Shown: one piece after another, positions 1,733 through 50,331 of the stretch | Layout of the letters: each line of letters starts with the position of its first letter | Numbering within the stretch: position 1 is the first letter of the stretch | Source of the DNA: a virus | Strand: one strand, 5' to 3' | DNA length: 64,000 nucleotides | Virus record (IMG/VR): IMGVR_UViG_3300044630_002434 | Coordinates: 1 to 64,000 of that record | Translations under genes and position numbers: made by a program | Notes under the pieces: generated by a model | The model's input: only the letters and a program-made list of their open reading frames with translations | Database searches by the model: none | What the model was told of the DNA's origin: nothing

Positions 1733-3715
1733 TTAGAACTCTACAGTTGCTGATGCTGTACCAGCAAGAGTGTCGCGCAATGCAGAGCGAGCACCGTTGA
1801 TGCTGATTGTTGAAGTTACCTTGATGGATTGAACGCCAACCTTGGCGATTCCTTCAAAGGTTTCAACGAACATCTTGTAGTCGTTGGTGCCAACAAGGGT
1901 TGAGTCACGAATAACTCCAAGGTCAAGCGTGCCACCATCTAGGAACAAGAATGTTCCTTCAGCGAATAGGTACCATACGAATGTGTCGTAGAACTCATTC
2001 ATAGCACCTGAACTCTGCGCAGCGTATGCATTTGCATCGTCCAAGTGGAATGTAGCGTTTACGCCACGGTCACGTAGGTAACCTTCGATTTCGCTGTCAG
2101 ATACAGACAACTTGTTGTCGCCTGGCATTTGCAGAGCAAAGTCAGCGCGAATAGCAGCCTTAATCCATGCTGGAGCAACAAGACGCAACTGAGCATCATC
2201 AGCCATACGGTGACGTGCACGGTACTGAGAAGCAGCGCGACTAATCTGAAGCAGGAAGTCTACGCCAAGACCAAGTACGTTGGTGCTTGTTACAGCAGTG
2301 GAACCGCTACTTAGAGCAGAAAGAAGGTTCTCTTCTGCTTCACGAGCGTGCTGAATCAGACCTAGTTCGTTGTGACGAGCAATAAGTTCTGGGTAAGCAC
2401 GAGTAGCAAGGTTACCGAACTGCATCTGCAGGGTTACTGCATCTGCAACTGCGGTTGTTTCGGTTGCAGCAGTTACAACAAGGTTTGCCTTGGTAGCACT
2501 TGAAGTAGCCGAATCGGTTACGTAAGCGGTGTCAAGAGCAGTTGTCCATACGCCAACAGCGTTGCCATATGAAGACAATACTGGTGGAACGATGTAACGG
2601 ATACCGCCACGGTCTGCTTGGAATGATGGCAAAGAGTCGCGGATTGGGCGAACATTGGAGCCAATTCCAAAGATTTCGTAACGGGTAGCAAATGGAGACT
2701 GGTATGAACCAGAAGCGGTAAGAGCACTTGGAGCACCCTTAATCTTTTCCATGTTTGCTTCTGCATCGCTACCAAGTTGCATTGATTCTGGGTATGCGGT
2801 GCTAAATGATGCAACGATGTGCTGTTCGCCGTCGCCACCGTTTACGCGGCGCAAGCCGTGTAGACGCTTGGCGAATGCATCTGCTACATCGCTCATGTCG
2901 GATAGTTCTGTACCTGCAGTCACACCTGGGATGTCAGCGCCAGCAGTAATTGCTACTGGAATGGCAGTTGTCATCGAAGCGGGACGGCGGTCGGCTGGGA
3001 CTTCAGGAGTTACATCCTGAGCGTCAAAAGCAGCGGCGGTCACTGTTGCCTCTTCCTGCACCTCTACTGGTGCATCAATTGGGGTTTCGGTTTCTTCGGT
3101 TGAAAGTTCAACAACTTCTTCTGTTGATAATTCAACAGTTTCTTCGGTTGAAAGTTCAATAGTTTCTTCTGTTGATAGTTCTGCTTCTGCAACTGGTGCT
3201 TCTTCGGCAACAGGTGCTTCTTCAGTAACTTCTGGTTCTTCGGTAGAAAGTTCGATAACTTCTTCCGCAATAGTTGATGCTTCTTCAACTGCTGATACTT
3301 CATCGGCTTCAGCAGATGCCATAACTGGCTTCTCTTCTTCCTTTTCCATACCTTCAGCGTCATCCTCTACTGGAGTCTCAGTCTCGACCTCTACTTCGGT
3401 CTCTTCTGGCATTTTTTCCATGTCAGTATCTTCCTCTGGTTGTTCGGTCGCGGCTTCCATCTCCTCGCCGTGCACACGAGCACTGGCTTCACTTGCTGTT
3501 GCAGCAAGTTCTTCAGCCTGTACTTCGCGACGCTGTACTTCAGAACGAACTGAATCAAGCATGTCGGCTAGTGAGGTCATCGCCTCAACTGTTTGGGGAG
3601 TTGGTTCTTCGCTTTCGACCGATTCGAACTGGCTGATGATTTCACTCTGAAGTTCGACCATTTGTTCGTCGGATAATTCAGGCATGTTTTCCATCATGTT
3701 TATAATGCGGTCCAC
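1733..3715 (-). CDS. Major capsid protein with fused acidic scaffold-like N-terminal region
   Basis: The start is placed at the GTG at 3715 because GGAGGAGG lies 7 bases upstream; an ATG 36 bases earlier has no ribosome-binding site. The product is 660 residues. Roughly residues 1-230 are a helical and then very acidic, repetitive region (ELSTEE and EEAPVAE repeats) resembling a scaffolding or delta domain removed by the prohead protease. The rest is an HK97-fold capsid domain: a G/F-rich N-arm, LPSFQADRGGIRY, a long helix, and a C-terminal region ending in FVETFEGIAKVGVQSIKV. It lies between the protease and the second capsid-like gene, the usual order. The protease presumably cleaves after the acidic segment; the site is not identifiable by eye. 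Confidence 0.88.
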   Translation of the reverse strand: MDRIINMMENMPELSDEQMVELQSEIISQFESVESEEPTPQTVEAMTSLADMLDSVRSEVQRREVQAEELAATASEASARVHGEEMEAATEQPEEDTDMEKMPEETEVEVETETPVEDDAEGMEKEEEKPVMASAEADEVSAVEEASTIAEEVIELSTEEPEVTEEAPVAEEAPVAEAELSTEETIELSTEETVELSTEEVVELSTEETETPIDAPVEVQEEATVTAAAFDAQDVTPEVPADRRPASMTTAIPVAITAGADIPGVTAGTELSDMSDVADAFAKRLHGLRRVNGGDGEQHIVASFSTAYPESMQLGSDAEANMEKIKGAPSALTASGSYQSPFATRYEIFGIGSNVRPIRDSLPSFQADRGGIRYIVPPVLSSYGNAVGVWTTALDTAYVTDSATSSATKANLVVTAATETTAVADAVTLQMQFGNLATRAYPELIARHNELGLIQHAREAEENLLSALSSGSTAVTSTNVLGLGVDFLLQISRAASQYRARHRMADDAQLRLVAPAWIKAAIRADFALQMPGDNKLSVSDSEIEGYLRDRGVNATFHLDDANAYAAQSSGAMNEFYDTFVWYLFAEGTFLFLDGGTLDLGVIRDSTLVGTNDYKMFVETFEGIAKVGVQSIKVTSTISINGARSALRDTLAGTASATVEF

Positions 3716-3864
3716 TACTGTCCCTCCTCCGGGGCAGTCGGGGGAAACCATCTATGTATATGATTTCCCGGCTTATGTAGTCGAGATTGAGGGACTCCAA
3801 ACAGAAACCTGTAGGAGGCACTCCACCTATATCTGATAATACAGTATTCTTAAATACGCTATTT

Positions 3865-6800
3865 TTAAGTTAGCAGTCTAAGAAGTCTATTCATTTTGCT
3901 TGAAATCTCGCTCTGACTGTATACGTCTCCGCCAGCCATAAAAGATTTTAAGTCTTTAGTTACTTCGCCAGCATCTTCTTTACCAATTTTGGCTTCAACT
4001 TTTTGTATCATATCTTTCATTAAATCAGCCAAGGCAGATGGGACATCACTAAAGCGAATCTTCTGGGACTGGTTTTCGAAAGGTAAAGGTAGGTTTGAAA
4101 TTGTCTCTGCCAAAGCAGTAGCGCCAGTACGAACATTTGTTAAGGCTGTACTGTCCAAAGCACCTGTATCTATACGATTAACAGTGTCAATCACATCCCG
4201 AGCGCCCTGAGCAGCGCGGGCATAGTTACCAACATTGTCAAGGTTTTCTACCTCACCAATACGCTTAGAAAGCGCATCAAGTGATGCAACTCCTGAGTCC
4301 TTCTTCAAACGGGCTAAAACTAAGCGAAACTTGCCTCGAGCATCTCTAGGCTGAGTTTGGGCAGTGTATTTACCTTCAGACTGAGGAGCCTCGTTAGAGG
4401 CTGGTACTTTTGGGTCAACACCACCTGTGGCTTCCACAGTTGCGTCGGCTTGCATAATATCTGCAGCAGCAGTCAAAGAATTAGTAGAGATTTTGCTTCT
4501 CATATCTGCTAGAGAGATTGAAAGTTCCATTCTGCTTGCAGAAAGGTTTTTCCACTCATCTGGGACAAGGTCTGGTTTACCAAGAGCCTTAGCACGCTTA
4601 GTGATGTGACGACGAACTTTAGCGCGGTCAGATGGCTTAGAGCGACCATATGCTCTAACTGCTTTGCGCAAGTCAGATACGTTGCGGATTGGGTAAGAGC
4701 CATTTGGCAGTGCTTCACCTGATTCAGCCAACTTCTCGCGGATGGCTTCAGACGGACCAGCAGCAACTAAACCTTGCTCTTCAAGTGCTGAAAAAACTGT
4801 TTCAAAATTTATTTCTACAGGCTCATTTTCAGTCATTAGTAGTTCTACTTCACTAAGCGAAGAAGATAACTGCCATTGCCACTTCTGATGCATGTCAATT
4901 CGACCAGCAATAAAGTCAGCAACACCCTGCTCATTTGCAGCCTCAAGCATTTGGAACATAGCCTTAAGTTCATCAATTACTACTTCATTTGCAAGAAGCA
5001 AGTCTGCAGCGAGTGCCCGTGGGCTTCCGCCTGACAATTCAGAACCTGAAAGGCTAGACATATGTGCGTAGTCCGCTATAGAAATCTTAGGGAATCCTCC
5101 GAGTTTGCGGATATTTTCTCCCATAGGGTCTATTGAACTGTAGACATCTTCGTAGATTTCTTGGAATAGTTCGTGGTACTGAGCAAAGTCCGCACCAACT
5201 ACATTCCAGTGATAACCATGAGCACGGAAATATAGATTTACTACATCTGCCATTAAAGAGTGTAGAGAACTTAAGTAAAGAGGCTCTATGTCTCCTGCTC
5301 CACCTGCCGTGATACCAGACTCATTAATGAATTCTTCTTTAAGTGATGCAAAACGACTCTTTGCAATTTCTGCATATTGATTAAGCAATTCTGGGTCATC
5401 TTTTAGTCTCGCTAGGTAGTTTGCACCAGCAGCAACAAGAGCCATTACTTCGCCAGACGCTACGCGAGCGCGTGCAATTGGGAAACCTGGAACATTTACT
5501 TGGCAAACAGCAACAAGTTCAAGAGCGCCTTGAATTGGTCGCCAGTCACCTGATGGAGCAGAAGCGCGAATAGCGCGAACTTGGTGAGGAGTTACCTCTG
5601 GGCGAAGTGAGCCAGAGACCCAGATTCCAAATGAATCTTCGCCAGCGTGGACATCGGCAAATGCTGAAGCGGTATCGTCATAATGCTTTGCAGCAGACTT
5701 AGCCGATGCTTCTAGTGGAGCGTGTCCACCAGCAAGAGTTAGTTGACCTACTGGAACATCTGCGCCTTCTTCAGTACGGCAAACACCTGTATGGAAGTAG
5801 GAGTATCCGCTCTTTGAGCGAGGAGGCTTTGTTCCAAAACTAAGACCAATATGGTCTACATGCCAAGCAGCAATATGACCAAACACGCGACCGTCGTCAG
5901 TTACTGTAAGAGGTGTTGGACCAGTCAACTTAGGGTTTTCAAACCATGACTTAGGCGGGGTCATAGGGATGGAAGCAACTACAGCAGCACAAGCCACCAA
6001 AGCGCTCTCGCTAGAAACAGGCTTCTTAACCTGCATACCGATTGAACTCACAGGTTCCTCCTGTACATCGACGATTTCGTCAGTTAATAGTATTCTACAC
6101 TCTTGAAAGGCTGGCTTAGGAACTAAAGTAACGCCCATGATGCGTCCCTTAGTAATTTTTATTTTTCCTGTGCCCATTTTCTTATTTTCTTCAGAGGATG
6201 TTTCTTCCTCTGCGTCTGCTTCAAATCTATCTAAATCTGCAGATATTCCACGAATGAAACCACCGCGAACTAGACGCTCTGCTTCACGACCGTACTCACC
6301 TGAATCAAATACGCCATAGGCATTTCCAACACCATCAGCAGTACGTTCCATTTTGTCGATACGACCAACAACTACAGAACCGTCATGCCCTTGAGCAGTT
6401 TTAATCTGCCACATCAATGGAAGCGGAAGTTGACGCATGGTAACAGCACCTATAGAGAAACTCCGACCATCACCTGACTCTGCTCCTTCAGGTAGAACAA
6501 CAGGAATAAAAAACTCTGCTCCAGATGTTGCAGGGGCTTGGAATCCACCAGAAGCAACAAGAACTCTATTCTTTATCTCTTCTGCCTGAGCCGATAGTTC
6601 TGCGTTCGAAATAATCTCCGCACTAGAGCGAATGTAATCATCACTGTAGGTATTGAAAGCGCCCTTACGACCATACATTTGACGATGAGCCTTGTCGCCA
6701 GTCCAAAGACCAGTCATTTCTTTGTGACGAAGTGCGCAGTAGCCCTTGGCACGAGGACCCATGTATTTGGATAGTTGACGTACACAGCGAGTCCAATCTC

Positions 6801-8994
6801 CGCCAGTTCCCCAACGAATCTTTGCACCACCCTCACCAACAGTCCAATAACGACGTAGTGTCTCAGCGTTGCCACGGTTACGGTCCGCGCCACCTGCAGC
6901 AATAATTGCTAGAAGGTCACCAGTTGGACCCCAAAGAACAGACAATTGAGAATTAATCTCTTCTTGTTTTTGTAGTTCTTCTTGCTTCTCCATGCCATTT
7001 TTCTCCATCTGAACCATGACATCAGAGAGTGTTTCATCATCTAAAACAACTACAGGAGGTGGAGTAGGGCTGTTTAGGTCAGTTAAAATTGCTTCGTCTT
7101 TAACCCATTTACCTTCGTGACGCTTGAAGAGAGTAGGAGTTGTTGACTTATTGTCAGCAGGAATAAGAGCAACTAAATTCATTACAGCCTGGGGGTCATC
7201 CTGAGCAACAATTGCCATATAAATTGCTGGAATATCTGAATTTTCCGGGGTCAGAGCAGTCAAATCTGCAGCAGCAGTGATACTTTCGTAGACTGAAGTG
7301 TAGTTCTTAGTCGTTGTGACAATTCCATTTTTCATAGAGACATTTTTAGTCCACTTACCTGAGCCACTACCAGAACCGCCACTACGAGAAGGACCTCTGT
7401 ATCCTACAGATTTAGCACTTTCTTGTGATTCAATATCGTCAGTTCGTACTGGGTTATACCAAGAACGATTAGGGTAGGTTTTATTTGAACCCTTACCATA
7501 TACAGTATCCAACCAACGACGTAAGTATGGGTCGTTGTAAGCATTTGGAGCCAACTCATCGTCAGCCTGTGTATTAACTTTAACTTTAGGAATTTCTTGT
7601 CTATTTGCTTCATAAGATGCGCGCTGGTCTGAGACCCATGAGCCCCAGTCGTTAAGCATTATCTGCATACTGTCTGCAGTCAGAGGTGGAAGACGGTTAG
7701 GTAGTCCAGCAAGTTTAGGGTTTGTTGACTGACGAGGCTCTCCAAGAATTCCTGAAACATCTAGCGGTTGACCATAACGAGGTGGCGGAACTGCTGCAGG
7801 TGCTTGTTCTGCTGGTCTAGTGTCGCTAACAGCAACATCGGCAGTATTTCCGTTATCAAACTCGATGGTAGCCGTACCGCCACTTACCGCTCTGATAGTT
7901 CCTGTAGCCTGTGGGTTGTTTGCAACAGTTACTCGTCCGCCCATTTTTGCAAATTTGCCAGAAGCATCTCGTACTTGGCTTTCCACATTTTCTGCACGCT
8001 CGTCAGAAGTATAGTTTCCGTCAGCGTCAGATGCCTCAGCAAATGTAAGAGAATCTATGTAGCCCCAGTCGATGTCTGCAGATGCTGCTAATACCATTTC
8101 AGTTTCTGTAATATCGATGTTTTGGATGCCAGTAGCCAAAAATGGACTGGAATCTAAAAGAGCAGAAGCAACAAGAGCAGCCTCTTGGTCTACAGGGAAG
8201 TGATAGAAAAACTTTCCATCTACGTCAAAATCTAGGACAGAATCTATGTCTTGGAAAGATTTACAAGTCTCTCCTAAATTAAACCAAGAACCGTTATCCC
8301 AAACTTCAACTGAGTTGTCTTGGTGAACTGCATATAAGCGGTCAATGCCAGAGCCATTACCTTGAACTCTAATAGCAAAATCTACATTAGTAGAGTTTGA
8401 AAAATATGAAACATCAATGTTGTCTACTTTTTTATATATTGATGCAGTTACAGCCTTTTTGTTTTCGCGCTCTACAATTGCTGAAGCCCAACTCTTAGCA
8501 GAGTCACCACCCCAAAGTGCCCAAGCAATACGACCATTAGATGGGTAACCATCTTCTGCTGGTTTGTATCCCTTACCTCTTTTATCTACCTCATGGCGAG
8601 GAAAGTATTTTGCAATGTGACGAACCTTGCGAATACCGATTTGTCCGCCTTTTGCAAGGGTACGAGCAGTGTTAAGACCTACAGGAGTTCCACCGCGTCC
8701 TTCTTCTTTGCGCCACTCAAGTGCACGCTTGGCTTCTGACTGTACAGACTTTGGAATGGTGTACATGCGGTCGCTATCTGCAAAAACTTTAATGTCTAAA
8801 TCAACTGCATATCCCGTAGCAATCTCATAGGAAGTGGTTGAGGGTTCTTCCCCATGTTCGTTCCAAGAAACTGAAGCAAGTACTGAAGCAATATTATCTA
8901 CGGGGCTAACCTCGTTGGTGTCTTCGTTTACAATGACAGATACATTGTCGGATGTCAGGAGAACATCACTACCGTTGCGACCGACAAATTGCAT
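3865..8994 (-). CDS. Capsid maturation protease in a 1709-residue multidomain protein with an embedded Dps/ferritin domain
   Basis: ATG with GGAGACGAAAAC upstream. Visible parts in order: an actinophage virion domain at about 84-165 (GGQIGIRKVRHIAKYFPRH); a SGKFAKMGG beta module near 345; a conserved domain at about 705-765 (KIRWGTGGDWTRCV, PKGYC-like AKGYCALRH); the prohead protease at about 815-970, with the His of QGHDGS and the Ser of RGISADL as likely catalytic residues and ending VTLVPKPAFQECRI; a second conserved segment to about 1190; a Dps-like four-helix domain at about 1235-1380; a segment ALPNGSYPIRNVSDLRKAV resembling DUF6582 near 1425-1480; and a helical tail. The Dps part has HWN, then His +12, Asp +15 and Glu +4, matching the ferroxidase residues His51, His63, Asp78 and Glu82 of E. 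coli Dps. Self-processing into separate internal virion proteins is likely but inferred. Confidence 0.88.
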   Translation of the reverse strand: MQFVGRNGSDVLLTSDNVSVIVNEDTNEVSPVDNIASVLASVSWNEHGEEPSTTSYEIATGYAVDLDIKVFADSDRMYTIPKSVQSEAKRALEWRKEEGRGGTPVGLNTARTLAKGGQIGIRKVRHIAKYFPRHEVDKRGKGYKPAEDGYPSNGRIAWALWGGDSAKSWASAIVERENKKAVTASIYKKVDNIDVSYFSNSTNVDFAIRVQGNGSGIDRLYAVHQDNSVEVWDNGSWFNLGETCKSFQDIDSVLDFDVDGKFFYHFPVDQEAALVASALLDSSPFLATGIQNIDITETEMVLAASADIDWGYIDSLTFAEASDADGNYTSDERAENVESQVRDASGKFAKMGGRVTVANNPQATGTIRAVSGGTATIEFDNGNTADVAVSDTRPAEQAPAAVPPPRYGQPLDVSGILGEPRQSTNPKLAGLPNRLPPLTADSMQIMLNDWGSWVSDQRASYEANRQEIPKVKVNTQADDELAPNAYNDPYLRRWLDTVYGKGSNKTYPNRSWYNPVRTDDIESQESAKSVGYRGPSRSGGSGSGSGKWTKNVSMKNGIVTTTKNYTSVYESITAAADLTALTPENSDIPAIYMAIVAQDDPQAVMNLVALIPADNKSTTPTLFKRHEGKWVKDEAILTDLNSPTPPPVVVLDDETLSDVMVQMEKNGMEKQEELQKQEEINSQLSVLWGPTGDLLAIIAAGGADRNRGNAETLRRYWTVGEGGAKIRWGTGGDWTRCVRQLSKYMGPRAKGYCALRHKEMTGLWTGDKAHRQMYGRKGAFNTYSDDYIRSSAEIISNAELSAQAEEIKNRVLVASGGFQAPATSGAEFFIPVVLPEGAESGDGRSFSIGAVTMRQLPLPLMWQIKTAQGHDGSVVVGRIDKMERTADGVGNAYGVFDSGEYGREAERLVRGGFIRGISADLDRFEADAEEETSSEENKKMGTGKIKITKGRIMGVTLVPKPAFQECRILLTDEIVDVQEEPVSSIGMQVKKPVSSESALVACAAVVASIPMTPPKSWFENPKLTGPTPLTVTDDGRVFGHIAAWHVDHIGLSFGTKPPRSKSGYSYFHTGVCRTEEGADVPVGQLTLAGGHAPLEASAKSAAKHYDDTASAFADVHAGEDSFGIWVSGSLRPEVTPHQVRAIRASAPSGDWRPIQGALELVAVCQVNVPGFPIARARVASGEVMALVAAGANYLARLKDDPELLNQYAEIAKSRFASLKEEFINESGITAGGAGDIEPLYLSSLHSLMADVVNLYFRAHGYHWNVVGADFAQYHELFQEIYEDVYSSIDPMGENIRKLGGFPKISIADYAHMSSLSGSELSGGSPRALAADLLLANEVVIDELKAMFQMLEAANEQGVADFIAGRIDMHQKWQWQLSSSLSEVELLMTENEPVEINFETVFSALEEQGLVAAGPSEAIREKLAESGEALPNGSYPIRNVSDLRKAVRAYGRSKPSDRAKVRRHITKRAKALGKPDLVPDEWKNLSASRMELSISLADMRSKISTNSLTAAADIMQADATVEATGGVDPKVPASNEAPQSEGKYTAQTQPRDARGKFRLVLARLKKDSGVASLDALSKRIGEVENLDNVGNYARAAQGARDVIDTVNRIDTGALDSTALTNVRTGATALAETISNLPLPFENQSQKIRFSDVPSALADLMKDMIQKVEAKIGKEDAGEVTKDLKSFMAGGDVYSQSEISSKMNRLLRLLT

Positions 8995-9075: not shown

Positions 9076-9774
9076 CTACTTTTCTTCGGTTACTGGTCCG
9101 CCAGCGACCCATGCATCACAGGTACGGGAAGAAGCGCACTTAAAATCAAATGCCTCGCAGTAGCCAAGTTCTCCAGCGTTAATAACGCCCCAAGCGTCGT
9201 TTCCTTGCTCGTTACCTAAGCCAGACTCGATGCAGTCAAGCATTCTAGGTGTCTTAATAAATACTGCGCAGTTTCCGCAAGTAGAAGACTTTGCCTCTTC
9301 AATATCCGTAGACCAGCGCTCAGCCTTTTTTTGCCAAAACTCGTTGTTTGGGCGAGCAGGGTTTAGTGGACCGTAGGCAGCAACCTTTATTGCGTTTTCA
9401 CGGTTCTGTAGGTTTAGACCGATATCTTGAGTTGCAGGTGGACAAGACCCGTTAGCAGCAGCAGTTATAGTTTCAGGACCAAACTCAAATTCTGGAGCAA
9501 CACCATAATCTTCTTGAACTGACTTTTGTTCTATACTCTGACCAACAGTGCCTGTAATAAGGTCAAATTCGTCAATAAAGTTTGGATTAACAAAAACAAT
9601 GTTTGCCCCAGAACCAATTGGAGATGTTTGACTAGTCAAAGGCAACCATTCGTTACGGATGCGTGAAAACGAACCCTCATTTGATTTATAAATAAGACCA
9701 GTTAAACGACCTTTTATATCAAAAGTTGCATACAAGTCCTGAGGCTTATCAGGTTTTTCGGGGGTAAATGCCAT
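9076..9774 (-). CDS. Cysteine-rich structural-module protein of unknown function
   Basis: 232 residues; the ATG overlaps the stop of the preceding gene by one base (TAATG), so translation is coupled. The C-terminal third holds six cysteines: CGNC, then Cys in MLDC, GYC, KC and TC ending in DAWVAGGP. This spacing suggests a small metal or Fe-S binding fold; a related cysteine pattern occurs in the protein encoded at 22754-23749. It sits between the giant virion protein and the protease fusion, so it is probably a virion or assembly protein. I do not recognise the family. Confidence 0.75.
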   Translation of the reverse strand: MAFTPEKPDKPQDLYATFDIKGRLTGLIYKSNEGSFSRIRNEWLPLTSQTSPIGSGANIVFVNPNFIDEFDLITGTVGQSIEQKSVQEDYGVAPEFEFGPETITAAANGSCPPATQDIGLNLQNRENAIKVAAYGPLNPARPNNEFWQKKAERWSTDIEEAKSSTCGNCAVFIKTPRMLDCIESGLGNEQGNDAWGVINAGELGYCEAFDFKCASSRTCDAWVAGGPVTEEK

Positions 9775-10397: not shown

Positions 10398-13300
10398 CTA
10401 TCCGTAAATATCTGACCAGTTGTCAGTGGTGTAATTTAGTATCTCACTGGCTCTGTCAGAAATCATATCTAACACATCCTGTGGCATATATCCACTACTG
10501 TATCTGCTTTTTAGTTCTTGTAAAGCCTGTGCAATTCTTTTATCCATTAACATCTTGAATGTTACAGGACCCACTCTATCAAATATTTGCTTTCCAAGGT
10601 CATTACTTACTCCAAGACTTGTAGTTAGATAGTCGTAAGGACTTTGGTATCCATTACTAGTCTGTTCTATAGCAGTGCGAATAGCAACAGCATCAGCATG
10701 GTCAAACGGTATTGGAATCCATGCTTCAGCCACATTTTCGTGGACTGGAGTGTTGGGAACATCGTTTCCACGTACCATCATAACATTATTTGACCCGCGG
10801 TCATTATTCTGGATAATAGCATCCATAGCCAATATACCAAGAGCATTGTTAATGCTAACGTGACTAGCAACATCTACAGCATTTACATCAAATATTCCTG
10901 ATTCAGACATGCGGACTAGATGAGGAGTGTCAAGTTCTGGGCTACTATTTGCACCAACAACAAGTTCGTCACTGTTGATAGAAGGGATACTTAGGTTAGT
11001 CCCAAGTTCACTGGTGATTATTCTGGTGCTGTTTGCATCTCCTTGACGGTCAACAACTGGAAGACCAACAATACCAAGAGCGCGACCAACAATATTAGAT
11101 GCTATTTCGGACTGGACGTTGGTCTCTGTTGATACATTTTTTACAAAGAAACGCTCTTCAGTTTTGGTGCTTTGTACCAACCAGATATCACTTGCACCAG
11201 CGTAAGCACCTGAAATTGTAGGTCCATCCTCTGGGCTAGTTGTATTCTGTTGAACCAACTTTGTAATGGTGAATGGTAGAATCTCACCAGTTTCTTGGTT
11301 AGTAACATTTTTTGTTTCTCCAGGAGTCATGCTCGTATCAAATACTTCACTAGGAAGATTCTTTACAGTCTCTCCAGCCTCACTTAACTTTGTGCGGTTA
11401 GGCTCGAATGACAACCTATCTCTTTGAAGAGCATCAAGCATAGAAACAAAGTCAGCCTTAATTGAAGCATCCTTAGCCTTATCACTAGGGCTGTCTCCGT
11501 TAGTAAATACTGGGTCATTGCCATCAGCAAGAATAGTAGCAAGATACTTACCAAGTGCAGCCTTGGCAGGAGGCGATAGTTGGGATACAGAACGCTTTCC
11601 TTCGTAGCCAGTAAGTTGCGTCAACTCATCTGCATAAGGTGCAAGAATCTCTCCAATACCGTCATAGGTACTACGAGTAGCAAAATGGCTTTTAATTTTC
11701 TCATTATTTTCAAATGCATTAGCGCCACTAGCAGCCAACTTATCAATAGCCTTTTTCATGTTTTCGTATGCGCTGTTCTGGACTCGCTCTGTAGATGTTG
11801 GTATTAGAGTTTTCTTTCCTGAGAACCCTGTATCCATCGAGTAAGCCTTACCAAACCAATGCTGTTCGTTAGCGCGTAGGTCTGGTGTCCAACCAATCAT
11901 TGCCATTTCACGAGGAGTCGGGAATGTAGGAGCAAGTTCAGCATCTGATGTCATTGCTTGTCTTAGACCTTCCCAGTCTGAGACTCCATAAGCGTCAAAT
12001 GCTTGCTGAACAACTTTATCCATACTAGCCTTTGCTCTAGCATAGCCAGTACTACTACCGTAATAATCTACTCTTTCTCCACTAGTGTAGCCACGCTGTA
12101 TGTAGTCATAACGCGATTTTAGTTGGTTGTACCCTACCCCAGCGCCATTCCAGTTAAATCCAGTGATAGCCCAGACGTAACCGCCAGTAGCAGACCCAGG
12201 ATGGCTGAAGCCACCAGCCGCAGCAGATACCGTTATGGATTTAGCGCCATTTGCAATGTACCAGTTTTCAGCGTATTGATTGAATAGAGAAGAGAACCCT
12301 GAAGGTTTTGCTCCTTCAATAAACATGCTTGCATTGTAAACATTATCAAGTTTTCCATCTACAAATCTGAATTGCCTAGATGCACTGTAAGTTTTACCTG
12401 TTTCAGTACTCTTAATTCTTACACTTACATCCATGTTGCCAGTGCCAGATGAGTTAATACGTCCGCCAGCGCTAACGCCTTCAATAGTTAAATCGCCACC
12501 AAAGACGTTACCTACGCCCATGCCAAGTGCTACAGCCTTGTTTAGTTCTCTGCTGTCGCCACTTCTAATAAGTTCTATAACTCGGTCAATTGATGGTCTA
12601 GAAACACCAGCGTGCGCAATCTGGGCAGCCTTTTCTGCTTCCCATCCTTGGTCTTGGAAGTGCTTTTGAGTAACAGGGTCACCGTTAGGTGTTACTACAA
12701 AGTTGTCATCTATCCTGTCAAAGTTAGGATTAGAGACTCCTGCCATAGAACCATCAAACTCTATTTGCTGAACAGGGGTAAGTAGATTCTTAGCAATATT
12801 GAGGAATCTTCTGTGTAGAGGGATAGGATTTGGAGCAAGTTGTAGGTTAAGTTCAGCCTCTAATATCTCTTCAGCCTTAGCATCAGCGCGGGCTCGTTTT
12901 GTAGCCAAACTTTCTTCACTATTTGTTGTAGCAAGTTCGTCTACTTTGGTCTTAACGCTCTCTAATACAGTATCAAGATTAGCATTTGATGGAATTTCAT
13001 AACTATCCATAGTTCCATCAGGAGAAACAACAGTAACAATAGCAGTATTCTCACCCTTAGGGTCGATGTTTACATCAACTCTATACTCATTGACATATCC
13101 TGCTGGCTTATGAGTAAAGCCGTAGTCCCATGTTCCTTCAGAACCAGCAGAATCTACTCTAGCGCTCGCGCGGGAATTAGGTACGTAATCTTTTAACTCT
13201 TGCTGGAGAGTTTGCATACGAGTACGCTGAGCCTGAACCCTAGCCATGTGATAACCATCAACAGCATTTCTAGAAGACAAATTTATTCTATCTAGTGCTT

Positions 13301-16300
13301 CTTCTGTTCTTCTATAGCGTCCACTATTCTTAATAGTCCCATCGGTATTTAATGAAGAAAGAGTCCAACCACCTTGACTAGTATCTTGAGTTAAAATCAT
13401 TTCATGCTCTACTGAAGGAACACTAATCTTGTAGGAAAGACCAGTAAAACTATTATCATCAGATGCAATAGATACTTCTACTGGAGCACTTGCATTTAGT
13501 GCGGCTAGTCTTCCTTCAATAGCACTCTTAAGATTTGCTACTTCACGAGCATTAAGACGCTTTTCTCTAGGTGCTAGAGGATAAGGACGCGAAGCCGTTC
13601 CGCCAGTAGACCTTGGAACTTCAATAGCCTCTCGTTTTTCTAAGAACTTTTGTATGACCGCGTCGCCAGCGTCATCAACAGTGTCAAACTTGTTTGGGAA
13701 TTCAACACCGTCAGCAGTTGCTACATATTTACCACTTGCAGTTTCGTAGTAAACCATTCCTTGAGTCCCAGTTACCCTGTCAGTCATGTTGATTTCTTTT
13801 GTAGCCGAAGACTGAGAAACAGACAAGTTTTGACGAGCACCTGGAACTGCATAAGCCCTACTAGGGTATGACTCCAAATCCTGAATGTAAGCGTATGTGT
13901 TTGGTGCTTCGGTTATAGGATTACCTGGAAGAACCTGAGGATTAGCACCAGCAGGTCCTGAGTCTCCTCGCGAAGATGGGGAACCATTAGCACCAGCAAG
14001 ATAAAGATTTGCTTGCGCTGCTGCTTCATTTAGAGTATCAAAATCATCTGAGAAATCAGGATTTCTACCTTGTTGCATTGCCATTGACGCTAACCAAGCA
14101 GATGTTCTAAACTTACCCTCAGGAGTAGCAGTGATTGATACTGCTCTACCACTTGAACTATTTTCGTAGCCGCGTCTTGTCCAGAAAACACCCTTAAGGT
14201 TTTCATCTACTGTAGACATATTAGTTATTGCATATGAACCTGGAGCCTGAAGACCTGCATTTATAATCTTTTGATAAGCCTCTGTCTGCACATCAGGAGC
14301 ATCAGTGTCGGTAGGAGTGTCGCCCTCTCGAGAAGGTCTCAAATCAAGGAGACGGAACTCTGCTCGCGCAATTGCTACATCAAGGTTAGAAATGTACTCA
14401 GTCTCAAGTGAATCAAAATCAGATTCTATATCTACTGAATAGGTCTTACGGTCTTCATCCCATTCAATAGTAGCAACATTTGTCGCATCTATTTTATCGC
14501 TTAAGTCTCTTAATTTAATAAATTTGTTGCCTGCACTAGCCTCTATTGCCTTGTCATTTCTAACATTAAATGAGTCTGCAGAGTTTTGTAGTGCTCTTGT
14601 TCTTTCCTCATCAGTCATAGGGATAGGAGTCGGAGCCTGTGGAGTAGTAGGAGTTGGAGTGGTAGTAGAAGCGCGGTCTATATTTTCTTGTTCAATAGTG
14701 TTGATAATCTGTTTCGCTCTATAAGTTACACCTCCAAGGTTGTCAAAATACTCAATCTCTCCATAAGGACTTCCCTCAGCAAATGCTTGCAAAGAATAAG
14801 CCTGACGGTTTTCAGCCCATTCAATGTTTACTTGACCATCGCTGTCATCGCCTACGTTAGATATTTTAAGGATGTCTCCATCCATTTCAGCATCTCTTAG
14901 CCCATTATCTCTGTCAGCATTAAATATTTGCACATAGGTCTCTAGCGCTGCTGTTCTTTCTTCAGAGGATATTGCAGTAGGTGATGGCTCTGGTGTCGGG
15001 GTAGGAGTAGGTGTTTGAACCTGTGGAGTAGTAGGAGTTGGTTCTTCGCCTCTACCAGTAGCGCGTCGCCAAATTGGACCAAGAACTCGGTCTTTAGGGT
15101 CAGCAAGTTCAACAATTCTCTCGGATAGAGGCGGAAGACCAGCACGTTCGCGGTACTCGCGTACTCTTTCTTGGCGGTCTAGCCACATTTGGTAGGCACG
15201 GCGTGTTTCAGCAACACCCTTACTTAAACCAGTTCCACCTCGCTTTGATACGTATGGACGGATTACTGTCTTAAATTGAGCACCAGCACCTCTACCAGTG
15301 CCTTCAACTCTACGTACTTCAACAGTGTATTTTTCAGTTGTCTCAAACTTACGAGGCGCTTCAATTCCTTTTTGAATATTCAATAAAGGACGTTCCATGT
15401 TTCGTGCTTCGTCGGAAACTGGAGGAGCGAATCTTAGGTCTTCCGTATCTCTACCGCGACCATTCAAGAATAAGAAGTCAGTAGCATACGTTCCATAAGA
15501 ACCATCAGCAAATGCTACATAGGCATAACCCTTACGGGCACGGTCTCCTGAGTTTTCAATTGTCTCCCAAGCGACAATAACTCCTTCGCCTCTACCTTCG
15601 TTCCATCCGTCATACTGGTGAACGACGCGGTCGCCAAGACGAGCCTGATTTTGTCCATCGGCAAATATGTAGTTTTCTTCAGAGTAGCGTTGCCAATCTT
15701 TATCGCCAATCATTCTTACTCGGAAAGGCTCTTCTCCTGGTAGAAGTCCACTAGTAACAAATGGAGATGAGTCTCCAGCAGTAGCATCCTTTATATCCTG
15801 ACCAAAGTTAGGGTCACTGTTGTAGACTACTCGACCTTCAGCAAGAGCGCGTTGTAGGTCTGCATACATAATGTCTGCTTCTCCACGGCTTGATGCTTCT
15901 TGGTATGCAAGTTCAATATTGTTACGCTCTGGGTCACGAATGATTACGTTGTAGTGCTCTGGGTCGCCTTCAAAACCAGCGCCAGATTGAAGTTCAATAC
16001 TGAACTCTCTGCCATTAGGGTCAACTACTGTAGTACTATCAATCTGCCCATGAGGACGAACAATCCTATCTCCAATAGGAGTTCCAGGAGCAAATACTGT
16101 TGGCTCGTCTAACGCTTCTTCGCCAACATCAACAGTAGAGAGCGTGTCGCGGATTGCTTCTCCACCATCGATAATACGGGTAGCAGGCTGACCAAATACA
16201 CGACCTTCTGTTAGGTCTCCTGCTTGTTCAGGGTCACTCATGTCTAGTGGAACTTTTGAACCATCTGGATTTACCCAGTTAAATATGTCCACCCAGTCGC

Positions 16301-19300
16301 CACGGTCTGTCCAAGCCCGTCGCTCTGCACGATTGTCGCGCTCTAAATAAGCGCCATCTTGAATTCGCGAGCGTCTTTCATTTTGCTTTTGTTCCTTTGA
16401 GCGGGCTGGCTTCTTAGGAGTTTTTACTTCTGGCTGTAGGGACTTGCTAATTTCTTTGCCAGCAGATTTTGCATCCTCTAGAGTTTCAAATCTTTGGAAG
16501 TTGTCAATATCTGGTGCTTCTTCCCAGTTGCTTAAGCCACTATCCTTGAAGACACCAACTTCATAACCGCCACCAAAACGCTTAGGCATCTGCATAATTG
16601 TAATTCTGTAAGCATTGGCATCTTTATCAAATACTATTTCTTCAGACCTCTGTGTTGGGTAAGTAATATCTGAAATCTGCGAAGGCTTTTCTTCATTAGT
16701 AGGTTTTGTACCTTCCATAGATTCAAACATCTCTAAAGTAAGAGCAACAATGTCTTCATGCAATGCGCGTAATACGCTGTCTCCGACCTCTTGGGCTTCT
16801 TCAACAGAATTAACAATATTTTCTTGCTCGCCAACTAAGTCGCCATTGTCGTCAAATACCTTGGTAGTAGCGGTTAGTACTCCATCGCCACTTTCTTCAA
16901 TAGTTGTTTCAGCACTGAAATCATCAATGTTTTCATCAGAGTGCTCTAATCTTGGAGCAGGTTTTTCACTAGGCTCTACAACATTAGTTAGCGATGAGTC
17001 GCCTTCTTCACCAGTGTTTAGAGAGTTGGCGCTGATTGGACGACGAACATTATCAAGACGTGTTCCGCCCCAATAAGGACCGCTAGTAAATTCTTCGCCA
17101 GTTTCTAGGTCAACTCGGTGAATAGTAAATCGGTTTTCTTCAACCTCTTCAACTCCAACAACCTGAGACCAACGGTCACCCTTACGGGTACGCATAAAGT
17201 CACCAACTTCAAGAGAGTTAGCACGAACATCTTCGCGGTCTATTGGACGAGTGTTAGCGTCATCTAATACCCATTCGGCTGTACCTAAACGAGTTGGCTT
17301 TGATACTAAGTCTTTAGATGCCTTTACGCCAGCGATATCTTCAGCAGATTCTGGAGTAATAGTTGGAGTAGTGTTTTTTGAATCTTCAATTAACTGTTCA
17401 ACAGTGACCTCTTGACCAGCAAGTGCATTCTCCACAGCCTGAGCCATGTTCCATGCTTCAAGGTCGCGTAAGTAATTAGGGTAAGTTACTGAGTCGTAGA
17501 AGGCTAAATCCTCTGCGTGCTTAGCAGCAATTGCATCAACATCAAATTGACCATTGGCAAGATTTTCTGCTTGAGCGCGGTCTAGAAGTTTTTCAAAGAT
17601 TAACGCTGCTGCTTCTGCATCAGCATCGGCGCTATGCCAATTCTCTAGTGATACTCCATACTCTTCTGCAAGTTTACCTAATGCAACTCCCTTACGAGGG
17701 ACACCAGCATCAGCATTAATTGCTCTAGCAAGAGACTGAGGGTCAATGTAACCTGTAGGAGTGAAATCTACGCCTGTGTTAGATAGTGCATTCTCCAAGA
17801 ACCTACGGTCAAATCTAGAGTTCTGAGCGCCAAGAATTGTATCGGCTCCAGCCCAATCAGCAAATGCTTGATGAGCATCTGCCATGCTTGCTTGTTGTTG
17901 TAAGAAATCATCCGATAAAGGATTTCCATCGCCATCTTTAAGGTTGTCTTTTGACCAACCTTCAAGCGGTCTGCCTGGATTCATGTACATATTGAATCGG
18001 TCTACTACAACGCCATCTTTAATCTTTACAGCACCAAGTTGGACAGGGTTTTCTGTATTAGGGTCAAGACCAGTTGTTTCGTAGTCAAAGAACGTGAAAG
18101 TCATACCCTTTATATTTTCTCGAAGTTGTTCCCAACTTCCAGCGTCGCGCAACATCTGAGCAAATGCGCCCTGTGCGAATGGGTCACTTACTTCGAATGG
18201 GGAGCGTGGCTCGCGTGTAGGAACTGCGCGAGGTGCTTCTCTAAGGGCAGGATTGACTTCCTGAGGGTAGTCAACTTCTGGAGCATCGCTTGGGAAGTTA
18301 TAGAGTGATGCAGCGTTAGCAATATTTTGGTTGTACTGCTTAACAAACTCTGGGTCAGTGTTACGAACATAAACGCCGTCAATGACTTCGCCTTGATTAA
18401 TTGCAGGTAGCGGACCAGAATCAGGAAGTTCACTGTTACGAATAACTTCCATTTTGTATTCGCGACCGTTACGACCCTCTTGACGAGGTTTCCACATCTT
18501 TTCCTGTAATTCGTGTCCTGGGTAGTAACCCTTAACTACAAGAAGACCTTGAGAGATTGCATCTGCATGGTCTGGATTGTTTGGGTTAGGGTCGGAAACA
18601 CTAGCAATAACAAAATTACCCTTAGTTGGGTCAGCCATAACATCGCCAGGCTTAAGTTCATTTGCATGAACTTTTACGCGGTGAATGTCCGTGCCTGCGT
18701 CAAATTCGTAAGAGGCTACGTCGTATTTATTAGACCAACGCGCACGCGCTGCATTAATCATGCCGCGCCATCTAGCGTAGGTAAGTTTGAATTCTTGGCT
18801 GTTGCTTCCTCCAAGGAAATCCCCGTACTGAGGCTTATGAATCTCTGGGAGATTGCCTGACATAGGCATGTCTTCTTCTGGTATACCTCTTACAAAGTTA
18901 ATAGGAGTTATGTTCTTCCACAACTTCTCTTGTACTGGATGTCCTGGGAAGTAACCCTTAACAGAAAGTTTTCCGCGAGAATCTGGCTCGGTTCCAACTT
19001 CAGTAATAGTGAAGCAGTCGCCGATTGTTAAATCTCCAGGTTGCATACTTGTAACAGGAGCACTGAACTTTACAATGCTTGCTTTACTAGGAAGATTACT
19101 TTCCGTATTAGGACCCCAGATATCCTCAGGTAGAGTTCCATCTTTAGGAGGGTCTTGCATTATGAAATCAACAGTTTCTTTTGAAGTTTTATCTCTAGGA
19201 TAATCGTCCATTACGTACTCAAAGATTTCTTTTGAAGTTCCGCCCTTAGGAGGGTCTTGCATTATAAAATCTTCTCGCGGAGCCTGCTCAGGTACAACAA

Positions 19301-22757: not shown

Positions 22758-23749
22758 GAAGAAGTACCCTTCTCGAACTGAGGCAATAAGTCAGCGTCTT
22801 TACTGTCGTATGTATATTCTGCCATATTTTTTACACGGCTATATGGGTCTTCGTTATCTTTGACTGCTCGCAACCAAGTTGCGCGAAGTGCTGGGATAAC
22901 TTCGTAACCTAAACCAGAAAATTCTGCCAAAGCAGTAATAGCATTCTCTGTTGATTCATATTCTTCTAAATCTTTAATAGTTACAGAAAGTTCTTCTTCG
23001 TAGTAAACATCGTCTACGTCTTGCTTTAGTTTTGCTCTGTCGTATTCAATGATTGCATCGGCACTAACAACACCGTCAGGAATTACAGCAAAACGACACT
23101 TACCTAAGTCTTCAATTGGAAGAGAGATAATTTGGCAGACATCTCCCTGCTCTGTCTCTTGGTAGAAGACGCAGTTCATGCAAACAACACCAATTTTTGC
23201 AACTTCGTTCTCTGCAGCAGGGGTGTAGCCAGCCCAAACGCCAATTTGGTCTTCGTTAAACTTTCCGTGCTTAGCAACAACTTCAAGTAGAGCCTTTGCT
23301 AGGTCTTGCTCTTCTGGAACCAAGCGAGCAGATGCCGTCAATGCCAAAGCAGAAGCAGAACTCTTCGTGCTACGAGGGTGAGAGGCAGGAAGCAAATCGT
23401 TATCTTGCTTGTAAGCAGAGTTAGAAGGCTTTCCAGACTTAAGAAGTTTTAGATAAGCGTTAACGCGACCCATAGCCCACTGGTCGCGACTCATTCCGGG
23501 ACGGTGGCTTGTTGAGAAAGCACCAGCACCTCGGCGGTAGACAGCCTTAAGCATTCCTAAAGTAGCCTTGCGACCTTCTTTAGCGTTTTCGTTGTGCTCG
23601 GAAACTTTATTCTCTAAAGACTTCTCTACTTTGGCAGAAAACTTAATAGCCTTAGATTTTCCAGTCGAAGCAGAGCCTTTAGGGTTCGTGCTAGAACCTT
23701 TGATTCTGTCTTTCTTTGGAGCAGGAGTCTTCGGGTCTGATTTAGGCAT
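22754..23749 (-). CDS. DUF5824-type head-module protein with a cysteine cluster
   Basis: 331 residues; overlaps the portal stop by 8 bases and the next start by 4. The basic N-terminus (about 1-55) is rich in Lys, Ser and Pro. Residues about 60-130 carry YRRGAGAF, SHRPGMSRDQWAMGRVNAYL and a DNDLLPASHP ending, the pattern I associate with DUF5824 in phages. Residues about 190-230 contain CMNCVFY, C and GKCRF, a four-cysteine module of possible metal-binding type. The domain is common beside portal genes in actinophages, but its role is unknown; an assembly or connector function is a guess from context. Confidence 0.8.
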   Translation of the reverse strand: MPKSDPKTPAPKKDRIKGSSTNPKGSASTGKSKAIKFSAKVEKSLENKVSEHNENAKEGRKATLGMLKAVYRRGAGAFSTSHRPGMSRDQWAMGRVNAYLKLLKSGKPSNSAYKQDNDLLPASHPRSTKSSASALALTASARLVPEEQDLAKALLEVVAKHGKFNEDQIGVWAGYTPAAENEVAKIGVVCMNCVFYQETEQGDVCQIISLPIEDLGKCRFAVIPDGVVSADAIIEYDRAKLKQDVDDVYYEEELSVTIKDLEEYESTENAITALAEFSGLGYEVIPALRATWLRAVKDNEDPYSRVKNMAEYTYDSKDADLLPQFEKGTSS

Positions 23750-25493
23750 TTTCTACACCTTCTGTAGGTGGACCAAACAATTCAGGAAAGTTCTCTACTG
23801 TTGGCTCTAAGGGCGTGCCAACTTCAACTGGTTCTTCTGTAGGTGCCTGCGGAGTCTCTGGTGATGCTGGCTCTACTGGTGCTTCTGTTACTGGTTCACC
23901 TGAAAGGGCTTGCGCAACATTTTCAGGTAGCGGACCAACAGATGAAGCCTGTTGCGCACCCTTAATCTTTGTCATCATGTCAGGAGCAAGGGCAGCGAGT
24001 GCTGCTTCGGTAAGTTCAGGTGAGAGCATACCCTTTTCAAAGAACATTCGGATTGCAAGTTCTTCGGGGGTAGGTGCATCTGCATCAGAGAAACCGTGAG
24101 CATGTCGCCAAGTAGAAAGCGAGATTGCCATCTTGTCGAAACCTGCATCAGCATCAGCAGCGCGGTCATTACGAGTTGAAATTGCTGATGGGTCATACCA
24201 AACAACGATGCGGTCTACGTCTGATTCTGCAAAACCGTTTGCAAGTAGGTATGGACGCAAGTAAACAACTGTAAGAGCGTCTGCAATAAGAAGCATGAGT
24301 GGCTCAATGTGGGTCTTGTAGAGCGTCTCATCAATCTGCAGGGCGTTTGAGTACTTGACGTTGGCTAAGCCAGTGATTACGTCCTTAGGCACGTCTACGC
24401 CCTGCAGAATGCGTTCCAGTACGCGGTCAGCACGTTGGGCTAGGGCAGGGTCGAAGGAACGCTCAAACTTGAATTGCTTAATAGCATCGCCAAGTTCTGC
24501 AGGACCACGAATAATAAGTGGAACAACTGCGCTGGCAGAGTCCTCATCCTTAATAGGAGTTGTCATCGCGTCGATAAGTTGCTCTTCGAAGTCGTCTTGC
24601 TGTTCTTCAATAAGAATTTCTGGGTCTACATCTACATCATCAGAGTATGGGTAGTCAGGTTGAGCGTTTGCTGCAACGCTTAATCCATCTGGCAAGTAAA
24701 GTGCGCCAGCGTTTAGGCGTGAGCGCGCTGTTGCGCGGAATGTACGGTTAAGAAGTAGAAGTTCGGCGCAAAGGTCTAACAAACCACGTAGTGATGAATC
24801 TGCTTCATCAGAGAAGCGTGGGTGTGAGCGCCAAATGCGTCCTACAAATGCTTGATTACCTAGTTGATGAACAGACTTGTTCTGAGAACCACTCATACCG
24901 CTACCAGTTGATTGTTCTCTGCGACCAATTACGTTGTAGCCACCCTTAGGGTCTGCAAGAATTTCATCTACAGACTTAATATCCCAAGATTCAGAGGTTC
25001 CGTAGTTAGGTCGTGAAGGCATTTGCACTAAGTAGCATTCGCCAGCAACAGAAAGGTTAAGAGCAGCGTCGCGCAAGAGACCAGCCTGACCACCGTAAGC
25101 AGAATCTAAACGATTAAGAGCGCGTTCTGCGCCATCTTTCATGCGCTGGTCAATAATCGAGGAATCTCTAACATTTACAGGAGTTTCAGCAGGATTTTCT
25201 ACAACTGCTGCGTAAATACGGATACGTGAGATTACAGAGGCTACAAGATTGAATGCGTATTTAAGTTCGCCGATTGCATCGTAGTATTCCCAAGCCTCTT
25301 GTTGCCAAGAAGATGAGTTGGCAGAGCGACGTTGACGAAATTGTTCTGATTCCCCTTTGTCCCCAATTTTTACTTGTTGCGCTGCAGCAGTTAGAGGACG
25401 GATTGCTGAATATGGTAGCGGTTCTAGTGGAGTACCACCAGAATTGAAAGCGCGTACTGGACGGTCGGCATCATCGCGACTAAATACACCCAT
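23742..25493 (-). CDS. Portal protein
   Basis: 583 residues with AAAGGAG 7 bases before the ATG. Portal-type features include an N-terminal helical region (WEYYDAIGELKYAFNLVASVISR), a stretch AALNLSVAGECYLV, an acidic insertion (SDDVDVDPEILIEEQQ), and RVLERILQGVDVPKDVITGLANVKYSNALQI with IEPLMLLIADALTVVYLRP, which is characteristic of actinophage portals. The C-terminus is a Pro/Glu-rich tail. Portals form a dodecameric ring at the packaging vertex and nucleate assembly. It is the first large gene of the head operon, but the large terminase that normally precedes it is absent from this window. Confidence 0.93.
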   Translation of the reverse strand: MGVFSRDDADRPVRAFNSGGTPLEPLPYSAIRPLTAAAQQVKIGDKGESEQFRQRRSANSSSWQQEAWEYYDAIGELKYAFNLVASVISRIRIYAAVVENPAETPVNVRDSSIIDQRMKDGAERALNRLDSAYGGQAGLLRDAALNLSVAGECYLVQMPSRPNYGTSESWDIKSVDEILADPKGGYNVIGRREQSTGSGMSGSQNKSVHQLGNQAFVGRIWRSHPRFSDEADSSLRGLLDLCAELLLLNRTFRATARSRLNAGALYLPDGLSVAANAQPDYPYSDDVDVDPEILIEEQQDDFEEQLIDAMTTPIKDEDSASAVVPLIIRGPAELGDAIKQFKFERSFDPALAQRADRVLERILQGVDVPKDVITGLANVKYSNALQIDETLYKTHIEPLMLLIADALTVVYLRPYLLANGFAESDVDRIVVWYDPSAISTRNDRAADADAGFDKMAISLSTWRHAHGFSDADAPTPEELAIRMFFEKGMLSPELTEAALAALAPDMMTKIKGAQQASSVGPLPENVAQALSGEPVTEAPVEPASPETPQAPTEEPVEVGTPLEPTVENFPELFGPPTEGVENA

Positions 25494-30465: not shown

Positions 30466-30494
30466 ATCTTACGCATTAACCTGCACTTTGTCAA
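30466..30494 (-). promoter_or_regulatory. Promoter and hairpin leader for the 30427 gene
   Basis: TTGACA, 17 bases, TAAGAT, lying over the 3' end of the deacetylase gene. Leader hairpin GTTGAA-TGG-TTCAAC at 30442-30456. Confidence 0.7.
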
Positions 30495-31413
30495 ACCCAG
30501 ACACGCGAGTCTTTTCATAGACATTAGCCACTACTTCCGCCCAGATAGACGGGGTATGTGTATGAGGTTGGTAGCCTCCAGCACCGCCAATCAATACGCG
30601 CCCTTGCGAGTAAGTATTAGCAATGTCCGCAACTATGTCTGATGCGTATGCGTAGCCATCATAGTCAAATTGCAAACTAGCAAGCGGGTCAGTCTTGTGA
30701 CCATCCGCACCAGTAGCAAGCAACACAACGTCAGGCTTATACCTATCCGCAAGTTCGCGTATCTCATCCATAGCGTTAGCAAACTCCAAGTTTCCAGCAC
30801 CTCTAGGCAATGCCCAGTTGTAAACTGAATTCTTTTCGTCGTGACCACTACGCCCAGTTCCGGGGAATACAGTTCCGTCGTGAATACTCATAGTAGGAAT
30901 GTCGGTGTTGTAAAGCAATGCCTCAACTCCGTCGCCGTGATGAGCATCCCAGTCGATGTAGATAGTCCGCAAACCTGCTTCAGCAAACTTTTTAGCAGAC
31001 CAAGCAATGTCATTAAACACGCAGAAACCACTTGAGTAGTCATAGTTAGCGTGATGCTTTGCGCCTTGAGGATTAAAGCCAACTTGCACTTCTCCAGCAA
31101 TCATCTTCTCAACTAACCGAGCCGTACCTGCAAACATCTTGAGCGCAGTAAGACCAAGTTCTGGTTTAGTTCCTGCCCACTCATTCGATAAGCCAAGTAG
31201 CACTTCTTGAATGTAGGCAGGGTGATGCACTTTGTGTAGTTCTTTAATGTCTGCATCTGTGTATTTGGGTGCAACAATCTTCACGCTATCCTTACCTAAC
31301 TTGTCAATAAGCAAGTCGGCAGCAAGTAATGCGCGTTCTGGATTAGTAGGGTGACCTTCACCTAACTGCCAATCAAGATAATCATTTCCGTATGCAATGT
31401 GTAATTTTGTCAT
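30469..31413 (-). CDS. Histone-deacetylase-like zinc amidohydrolase (AcuC/acetylpolyamine amidohydrolase family)
   Basis: 314 residues, a complete class I/II-like deacetylase core. Visible active-site elements: the His pair H120-H121 in GAKHHANYDYSSGFCVFND, zinc ligands D156 and H158 in IDWDAHHGDG, the third ligand D237 in ATGADGHKTDPL, and the catalytic Tyr Y281 in GGAGGYQPHTHT. Family members remove acetyl or related acyl groups from lysines, polyamines or small molecules; the substrate cannot be read from sequence. The ATG is fused to the stop of the phosphatase gene (TAAATG), so the two are one operon. Deacetylases are rare in phages. Confidence 0.9.
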   Translation of the reverse strand: MTKLHIAYGNDYLDWQLGEGHPTNPERALLAADLLIDKLGKDSVKIVAPKYTDADIKELHKVHHPAYIQEVLLGLSNEWAGTKPELGLTALKMFAGTARLVEKMIAGEVQVGFNPQGAKHHANYDYSSGFCVFNDIAWSAKKFAEAGLRTIYIDWDAHHGDGVEALLYNTDIPTMSIHDGTVFPGTGRSGHDEKNSVYNWALPRGAGNLEFANAMDEIRELADRYKPDVVLLATGADGHKTDPLASLQFDYDGYAYASDIVADIANTYSQGRVLIGGAGGYQPHTHTPSIWAEVVANVYEKTRVSGFDKVQVNA

Positions 31414-50133: not shown

Positions 50134-50331
50134 TTATGGGGTTTCTAGTTCTTGTTCCCACTTTATGGTGTCGTACATTCCCCAGATTTCATCATCTGTG
50201 AAGTTCTCGTGCAACCAGATAGAGGCGCGAGTCTGGGTTACTGGGTTTTCGTCTACTGGCTTAGCAGTTCCGAAGATGCTACCCATAAGGGCGTTGTATG
50301 CGTGTGCGTTTGCTTCATGCGGTTTGTTCAT
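50134..50331 (-). CDS. 65-residue small phage protein
   Basis: ATG overlaps the previous stop (ATGA). Helical (PHEANAHAYNALMGSIFG) then FTDDEIWGMYDTIKWEQELETP. Last gene of a four-gene coupled unit; unknown function. Confidence 0.65.
   Translation of the reverse strand: MNKPHEANAHAYNALMGSIFGTAKPVDENPVTQTRASIWLHENFTDDEIWGMYDTIKWEQELETP

Follow-up and report, generated by a model that had tools for sequence, protein, structure and literature searches.

What is a miniature ferritin doing inside the protein that matures a phage head? The question is raised by a single open reading frame in the window, the 64,000-nucleotide stretch analysed here, which covers positions 1 to 64,000 of the 119,711-base IMG/VR record IMGVR_UViG_3300044630_002434 from an uncultured virus of bacteria. 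An initial annotation had placed a Dps/ferritin domain at 4862–5290, within the capsid maturation protease protein. We found that this placement is borne out by Pfam, by a PDB sequence match and by the predicted fold, although the bounds of the domain are better set at 4840–5283 (residues ~1238–1385). The encoded protein consists, in order, of a phrog_2859-like region, a prohead protease, Dps, a 'GSYPIRN' domain and a C-terminal helical part. These parts and the head genes of the same module are located as follows:

3865..8994, minus strand: head-maturation polyprotein, 1709 aa (open reading frame; PHROG and Pfam matches)
8449..8793, minus strand: phrog_2859-like domain of ~100 aa, residues 68–182 (PHROG match, E 1e-22)
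5401..6501, minus strand: prohead (capsid maturation) protease region, residues ~832–1198 (phrog_18402, 29860 and 859)
4840..5283, minus strand: Dps domain, residues 1238–1385 (PHROG, Pfam, PDB sequence, AlphaFold2 and fold matches)
4480..4749, minus strand: conserved 'ALPNGSYPIRN' domain, from residue 1416, just behind Dps (locus comparison)
3865..4407, minus strand: C-terminal part, ~180 aa, which is a gene of its own in phage DSL-LC01 (comparison with DSL-LC01)
1733..3751, minus strand: major head protein, the adjoining downstream gene (phrog_777, E 3e-80)
23742..25493, minus strand: portal protein, in the same head module as the polyprotein (phrog_776, E 6e-106)

Several other genes of the window are recorded here in their own right. 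Residues 1556–1721 of a 4119-aa protein encoded amid the head genes (10398–22757, minus strand) match the DnaQ-type exonuclease family (RNase_T, E 1e-16). Two head-module proteins close to the Dps-bearing protease (9076–9774 and 22754–23749, both minus strand) have HiPIP-like four-cysteine motifs (C-x2-C ... C ... C); such motifs also occur in the comparison loci L070 (6977–9019), L004 (6106–8166) and L007 (DSL-LC01), and one DSL-LC01 head-module protein with the motif is annotated as a high potential iron-sulfur protein. These could be zinc or iron-sulfur sites, with a possible iron/redox theme. The window further encodes a histone-deacetylase-family protein (30469–31413, minus strand; PF00850, E 2e-51), a pyrimidine dimer DNA glycosylase, which is a UV-damage repair enzyme (50328–50849, minus strand; PF03013, E 9e-22), and a Mom-family DNA modification protein (59405–60079, plus strand; PF25680, E 3e-40) adjoined by a B12-type ribonucleotide reductase (60362–62419).

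The Pfam Ferritin profile PF00210 matches residues 1244–1385 (E 4e-15, 56.4 bits against a cut-off of 24.5), phrog_3636 matches residues 1243–1381 (E 4e-22) and the P. aeruginosa Dps in PDB entry 8ff9 matches residues 1242–1380 by sequence (E 2e-18); matches to the NCBIfam Dps equivalogs fall under their own cut-offs. Structure prediction, which the initial annotation had proposed as a check, returned a ferritin-like bundle of the Dps type. The AlphaFold2 model, a monomer prediction, is a confident four-helix bundle with a short BC helix (helices A, B, BC, C and D; pLDDT 86, pTM 0.80), and the linkers on either side score under pLDDT 50, as flexible tethers would. Its best PDB folds are HP-NAP/Dps chains (HP-NAP, E 2e-8, TM 0.93 on target), and the best 50 PDB fold matches listed are all Dps-family chains. 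A conserved stretch of the phage Dps clade reads QYHELFQEIYEDVYSSIDP. A chance match to a helical scaffold was ruled out by the profile, fold and active-site evidence. Its profile matches and modelled fold mark the domain as a true mini-ferritin (Dps), fused into a predicted head-maturation polyprotein.

Relatives of this domain are encoded on at least 524 IMG/VR stretches found in a four-seed search, and the best 80 were retained; together with the seeds, two phage-like loci from bacterial bins (L091 and L092) and the window, they yielded 74 distinct domains. Against this set we examined the ferroxidase centre, which in E. coli Dps numbering we take to comprise H51, H63, D67 (H51+16), D78 and E82. 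The equivalent codons in the window are:

5209..5211, minus strand: ferroxidase His1262 (E. coli Dps H51; alignment)
5173..5175, minus strand: ferroxidase His1274 (E. coli Dps H63; alignment)
5161..5163, minus strand: Gln1278, at the fifth-ligand position (E. coli D67; comparison of the clade with cellular Dps)
5128..5130, minus strand: ferroxidase Asp1289 (E. coli D78; kept in 74/74 phage-clade Dps)
5116..5118, minus strand: ferroxidase Glu1293 (E. coli E82; kept in 74/74 phage-clade Dps)

The spacing had been described as exactly that of the E. coli centre. It does hold, from His1262 to His1274 (+12), Asp1289 (+15) and Glu1293 (+4), but the description is slightly overstated for the centre as a whole: the acid at D67 is replaced by Gln1278, so that four of the five ferroxidase residues are retained. 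The H/H/D/E set is invariant in 74/74 distinct phage-clade domains, a count in which retrieval by pattern partly dictates the His of HWN but has no bearing on D78 and E82, which the patterns do not cover. At the fifth position, D or E is found in 13/74 phage-clade domains versus 40/46 unselected cellular Dps, two of which (2/46) also have Gln there. In a 40-sequence alignment, H, H, D and E belong to the 16 invariant columns, and dN/dS between the domain and its L003 counterpart is 0.08, indicating purifying selection; the residue pattern is therefore not a product of chance.

A further suggestion, that the domain binds DNA as Dps proteins do, was not supported. A lysine-rich or basic DNA-binding tail was looked for at the domain and its flanking linker and was absent; linker residues 1198–1238 comprise 9 acidic and 4 basic residues, and the net charge of the domain is about -13. 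With no such tail and with both linker and domain acidic, DNA binding is not indicated. Binding through a basic tail is a trait of some Dps proteins and not a defining one.

The fusion partner had been named as a capsid maturation protease, and this identification agrees with our searches. The head maturation protease family phrog_18402 matches the polyprotein with E 1e-54, and GenBank homologues in DSL-LC01, Cece and Arthrobacter phages are annotated as capsid maturation proteases. PF04586 (S78) gives a weak match at residues 867–969 (E 0.011), under its cut-off, as it likewise does on the DSL-LC01 homologue (E 9e-4, 19.9 bits against 21). Fold matches to the AlphaFold2 model of the protease region include herpesvirus assemblins (E 5e-4 for the best) and T4 gp21 (probability 0.97), the kin to be expected for a prohead protease; because the model is weak (pLDDT 58), we take these fold matches as supportive only. 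From profile and fold matches, the polyprotein is thus predicted to contain an S78/assemblin-type (herpes/T4-like) prohead protease.

The junction behind the protease was compared across 80 IMG/VR loci that have a window-type protease. Dps stands between the protease and the 'GSYPIRN' domain in 5/80 of them, and no Dps was found in 74/80. The gap between the two domains is 217–264 aa with Dps versus 42–83 aa without it; in relatives without Dps the 'GSYPIRN' domain comes directly behind the protease, and in DSL-LC01 and Big4, where Dps is missing from this place, 68 aa separate the protease from the next domain. Close relatives of the protease do without it, so Dps is an optional insert where two domains meet. 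Its position also varies among related loci: in L273 it has its own gene, 28 bp upstream of the one for the window-type protease, and on another contig (L070/L299) it is fused to a cysteine-rich/DUF5824 protein right after the portal gene, the protease there being without Dps. A survey of related phages had been put forward as another check, and it showed the fusion recurring on separate contigs of related and unrelated phages. We considered and rejected a chimeric assembly or frame artefact, as no fewer than five further contigs (L003, L012/L237, L015, L236 and L276) show the same fusion, with 52–90% domain identity. The cleanness of the insertion would also suit neutral domain shuffling, with Dps tolerated in a linker and without a role in the virion. 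Purifying selection, the invariant active-site residues and the recurrence across head modules and protease families all argue against this, and we regard it as highly improbable.

Among the 74 distinct phage-clade domains, 42 share an open reading frame with a prohead protease (29 phrog_2859-Dps-S78, 7 Dps-S78, 2 S78-Dps and 4 with the window-type protease), where frequencies among the 80 best viral matches lean to the seeds and are not population estimates. Fusions thus occur in both domain orders and with at least two prohead-protease families, and elsewhere Dps adjoins a third. A phrog_2859-like domain such as that of the window polyprotein starts the Dps-S78 fusions of other phages, and at representative S78 fusion loci the portal gene comes before and the major head protein gene after. 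In L004, Dps is a free-standing gene flanked by one for an XkdF-type protease and one for a putative scaffold, the latter followed by the major head protein; in L005, one protein runs from S78 protease through Dps to an acidic scaffold-like tail. The head link is not universal: for about 20/74 clade members, all free genes, the neighbours examined included nothing that could be assigned to a head module. Two observations at these loci stand apart: a short motif 'KHLQGQHDQSSHGSW' is repeated several times in head-module reading frames of L004 (2172–8166, plus strand), possibly as a processing or targeting tag, and in L028 (6566–8962, plus strand) Dps lies upstream of, and fused to, a kinase domain resembling zeta toxin (PF06414, E 6e-19); the gene for this protein comes right before an XkdF-type protease gene.

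The position of Dps between protease and scaffold-like parts in L005 and L004, together with the free domain order, could mean that Dps serves assembly, clustering protease and scaffold chains in the procapsid core through its propensity for 12-mers, while iron chemistry is secondary. Dps proteins do make 12-subunit cages (PMC11202242). However, a purely structural module would not need the H/H/D/E set that is invariant in 74/74 domains, closely related proteases function without Dps, and the clade includes free-standing genes. We consider such a structural role unlikely.

Phage redox and iron genes are customarily interpreted as aiding the infected host cell. In the present loci, head-assembly machinery repeatedly includes a ferroxidase module, joined in either order to proteases of different families, and this points to a function within the particle. 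If that is so, virion durability against sunlight-made oxidants and iron, as well as the iron content of environmental virus particles, would become testable by proteomics and elemental analysis. Prohead-type proteases work within the procapsid, and from this we infer that Dps copies are carried into the head. The protease or scaffold part would bring them into the procapsid, where they would be released by maturation cleavage or left tethered; they would probably pair or assemble the usual cage, and would bind and oxidise Fe(II) with peroxide or oxygen. Less Fenton damage to packaged DNA or head proteins would result, whether in the finished virion or near the site of late assembly. We give a probability of about one half to this main reading, in which the fusion ferries Dps into the head as cargo and the binding and oxidation of iron limit Fenton damage to the packaged DNA. 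That the domain is packaged in the capsid and that it acts as an antioxidant, both raised by the initial annotation, are plausible, and the frequent fusion of relatives to capsid proteases, or their placement beside them, suggests that some phages load an iron or oxidant scavenger into their heads. Against the cargo reading, Dps could be cleaved off and degraded or could work in the cell, the fifth ferroxidase ligand is missing, and 74/80 loci with the window-type protease do without Dps.

It is also conceivable that Dps is an auxiliary antioxidant for the infected cell, acting in the cytoplasm before lysis, and that fusion to an abundant head protein made late just secures its expression. Genes for ferritin and other defences against ROS occur in freshwater phages and were interpreted as help for the host (PMC6802176); free Dps genes are described from Gratiaviridae (PMC8008677) and Lactobacillus phages (PMC6669764), and free genes of the present clade also occur outside recognised head modules. 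Late expression with head proteins would nevertheless be poor timing for protecting a cell, and the repeated fusion or adjacency is to proteases and not to any abundant late protein, which suggests that the location of Dps matters. We think a purely cytoplasmic role unlikely.

Iron might instead travel with the virion, as in a capsid 'Ferrojan horse', with Dps-bound iron entering the cell or serving the incoming phage. The HiPIP-like cysteine motifs in the same head modules would fit such delivery, but we know of no head-interior protein that contacts receptors. In a study of Sajous1, mass spectrometry found a ferritin-like protein, gp217, that its authors tied to the 'Ferrojan horse', whereas Sajous1-like phages were without dependence on TonB or FeoB (PMC10892097). 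We rate iron delivery as very unlikely.

Returning to Dps as head cargo, a wider claim would be that in an environmental phage clade the capsid is an iron- and peroxide-scavenging particle, with many Dps copies as ferroxidase cages beside the DNA. We advance this only tentatively and with more doubt than the cargo reading itself. If true, phages would have their own equivalent of encapsulins loaded with ferritin, in which the prohead protease or scaffold is the 'cargo tag'.

When 102 domains were placed in a tree, the 43 rows of the phage clade grouped together (SH-aLRT 99, stem of 1.9 changes per column), and all 58 cellular rows fell outside this group; the window domain is 45–90% identical to the phage clade versus 19–31% to the cellular sample. 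Architectures switch several times within the clade, where many forks are unresolved. A recent theft of a host gene is not supported, because the phage domains form this single clade outside the 58 cellular rows; a host source outside the cellular sample is possible. The clade has so far been found almost only in phage contigs. Among 50,697 GenBank phage records, at the sensitivity used, there was no isolated phage with the fusion and there were only distant matches to the clade. The top fold matches in BFVD are 'uncultured Caudovirales phage' UniProt entries named Dps (498–679 aa) or Prohead protease (333, 432 and 763 aa), with 32–48% identity for the best seven. These entries probably represent the same clade and fusions, so that the fusion has already been in databases, unremarked. 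A full-text search, with most subscription journals and preprints outside its coverage, found no description of a Dps/ferritin–prohead protease fusion. Phage Dps as such was already known; the variation seen here is a clade of it that forms part of capsid-maturation proteins.

Compared with bacterial Dps (PF00210; PA0962 in 8ff9, HP-NAP and B. subtilis MrgA), the phage domain has the same fold, length and H/H/D/E residues, but it lies inside a 1709-aa protein, belongs to a separate clade, has the D67 acid replaced and is without the basic DNA-binding tail. The free-standing Dps of tailed phages (Privateer, SU10 and kuraviruses, Lactobacillus phages and Gratiaviridae) is likewise phage-encoded, but by separate genes; GenBank phage Dps matches the window clade only weakly and is not reported as fused to head proteases. 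A protease fusion is not reported in the available parts of the papers on Dps genes of gut phages (PMC8008677) and Lactobacillus phages (PMC6669764) or on freshwater phage ferritins, noted as ROS defence for the host (PMC6802176). Mass spectrometry of phage preparations detected the Dps of Privateer (PMC7881722) and, by 6 peptides in virion-preparation proteomics, a Dps-family protein of SU10 (PMC4281155); since the SU10 proteomics listed replication proteins too, its detection is no proof of packaging. In protease domain and gene order, the polyprotein is like the S78/assemblin-type prohead proteases of Caudoviricetes (T4 gp21; DSL-LC01 and Microbacterium phage Big4), whereas the DSL-LC01 and Big4 homologues lack Dps at the junction.

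Encapsulins offer a further comparison: ferritin-like cargo (FLP, IMEF and the P. furiosus fusion-FLP) places a ferroxidase in an HK97-fold shell and is sometimes fused to it (PMC11202242). Those cargo proteins belong to other ferritin-like families and are shell-fused or carry a targeting peptide, whereas here the carrier of the Dps is a maturation protease, and the phage it serves packages DNA. Membership in FLP/IMEF-type cargo was not found for the window domain: its matches are to Dps chains, and the shell is a phage major head protein accompanied by portal and protease. The phage Dps may still work like encapsulin cargo, and the fusion would then be a natural route for loading enzymes into phage heads. 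As an analogy, the ferritin-like cargo of encapsulins is the nearest working model for a Dps in the head.
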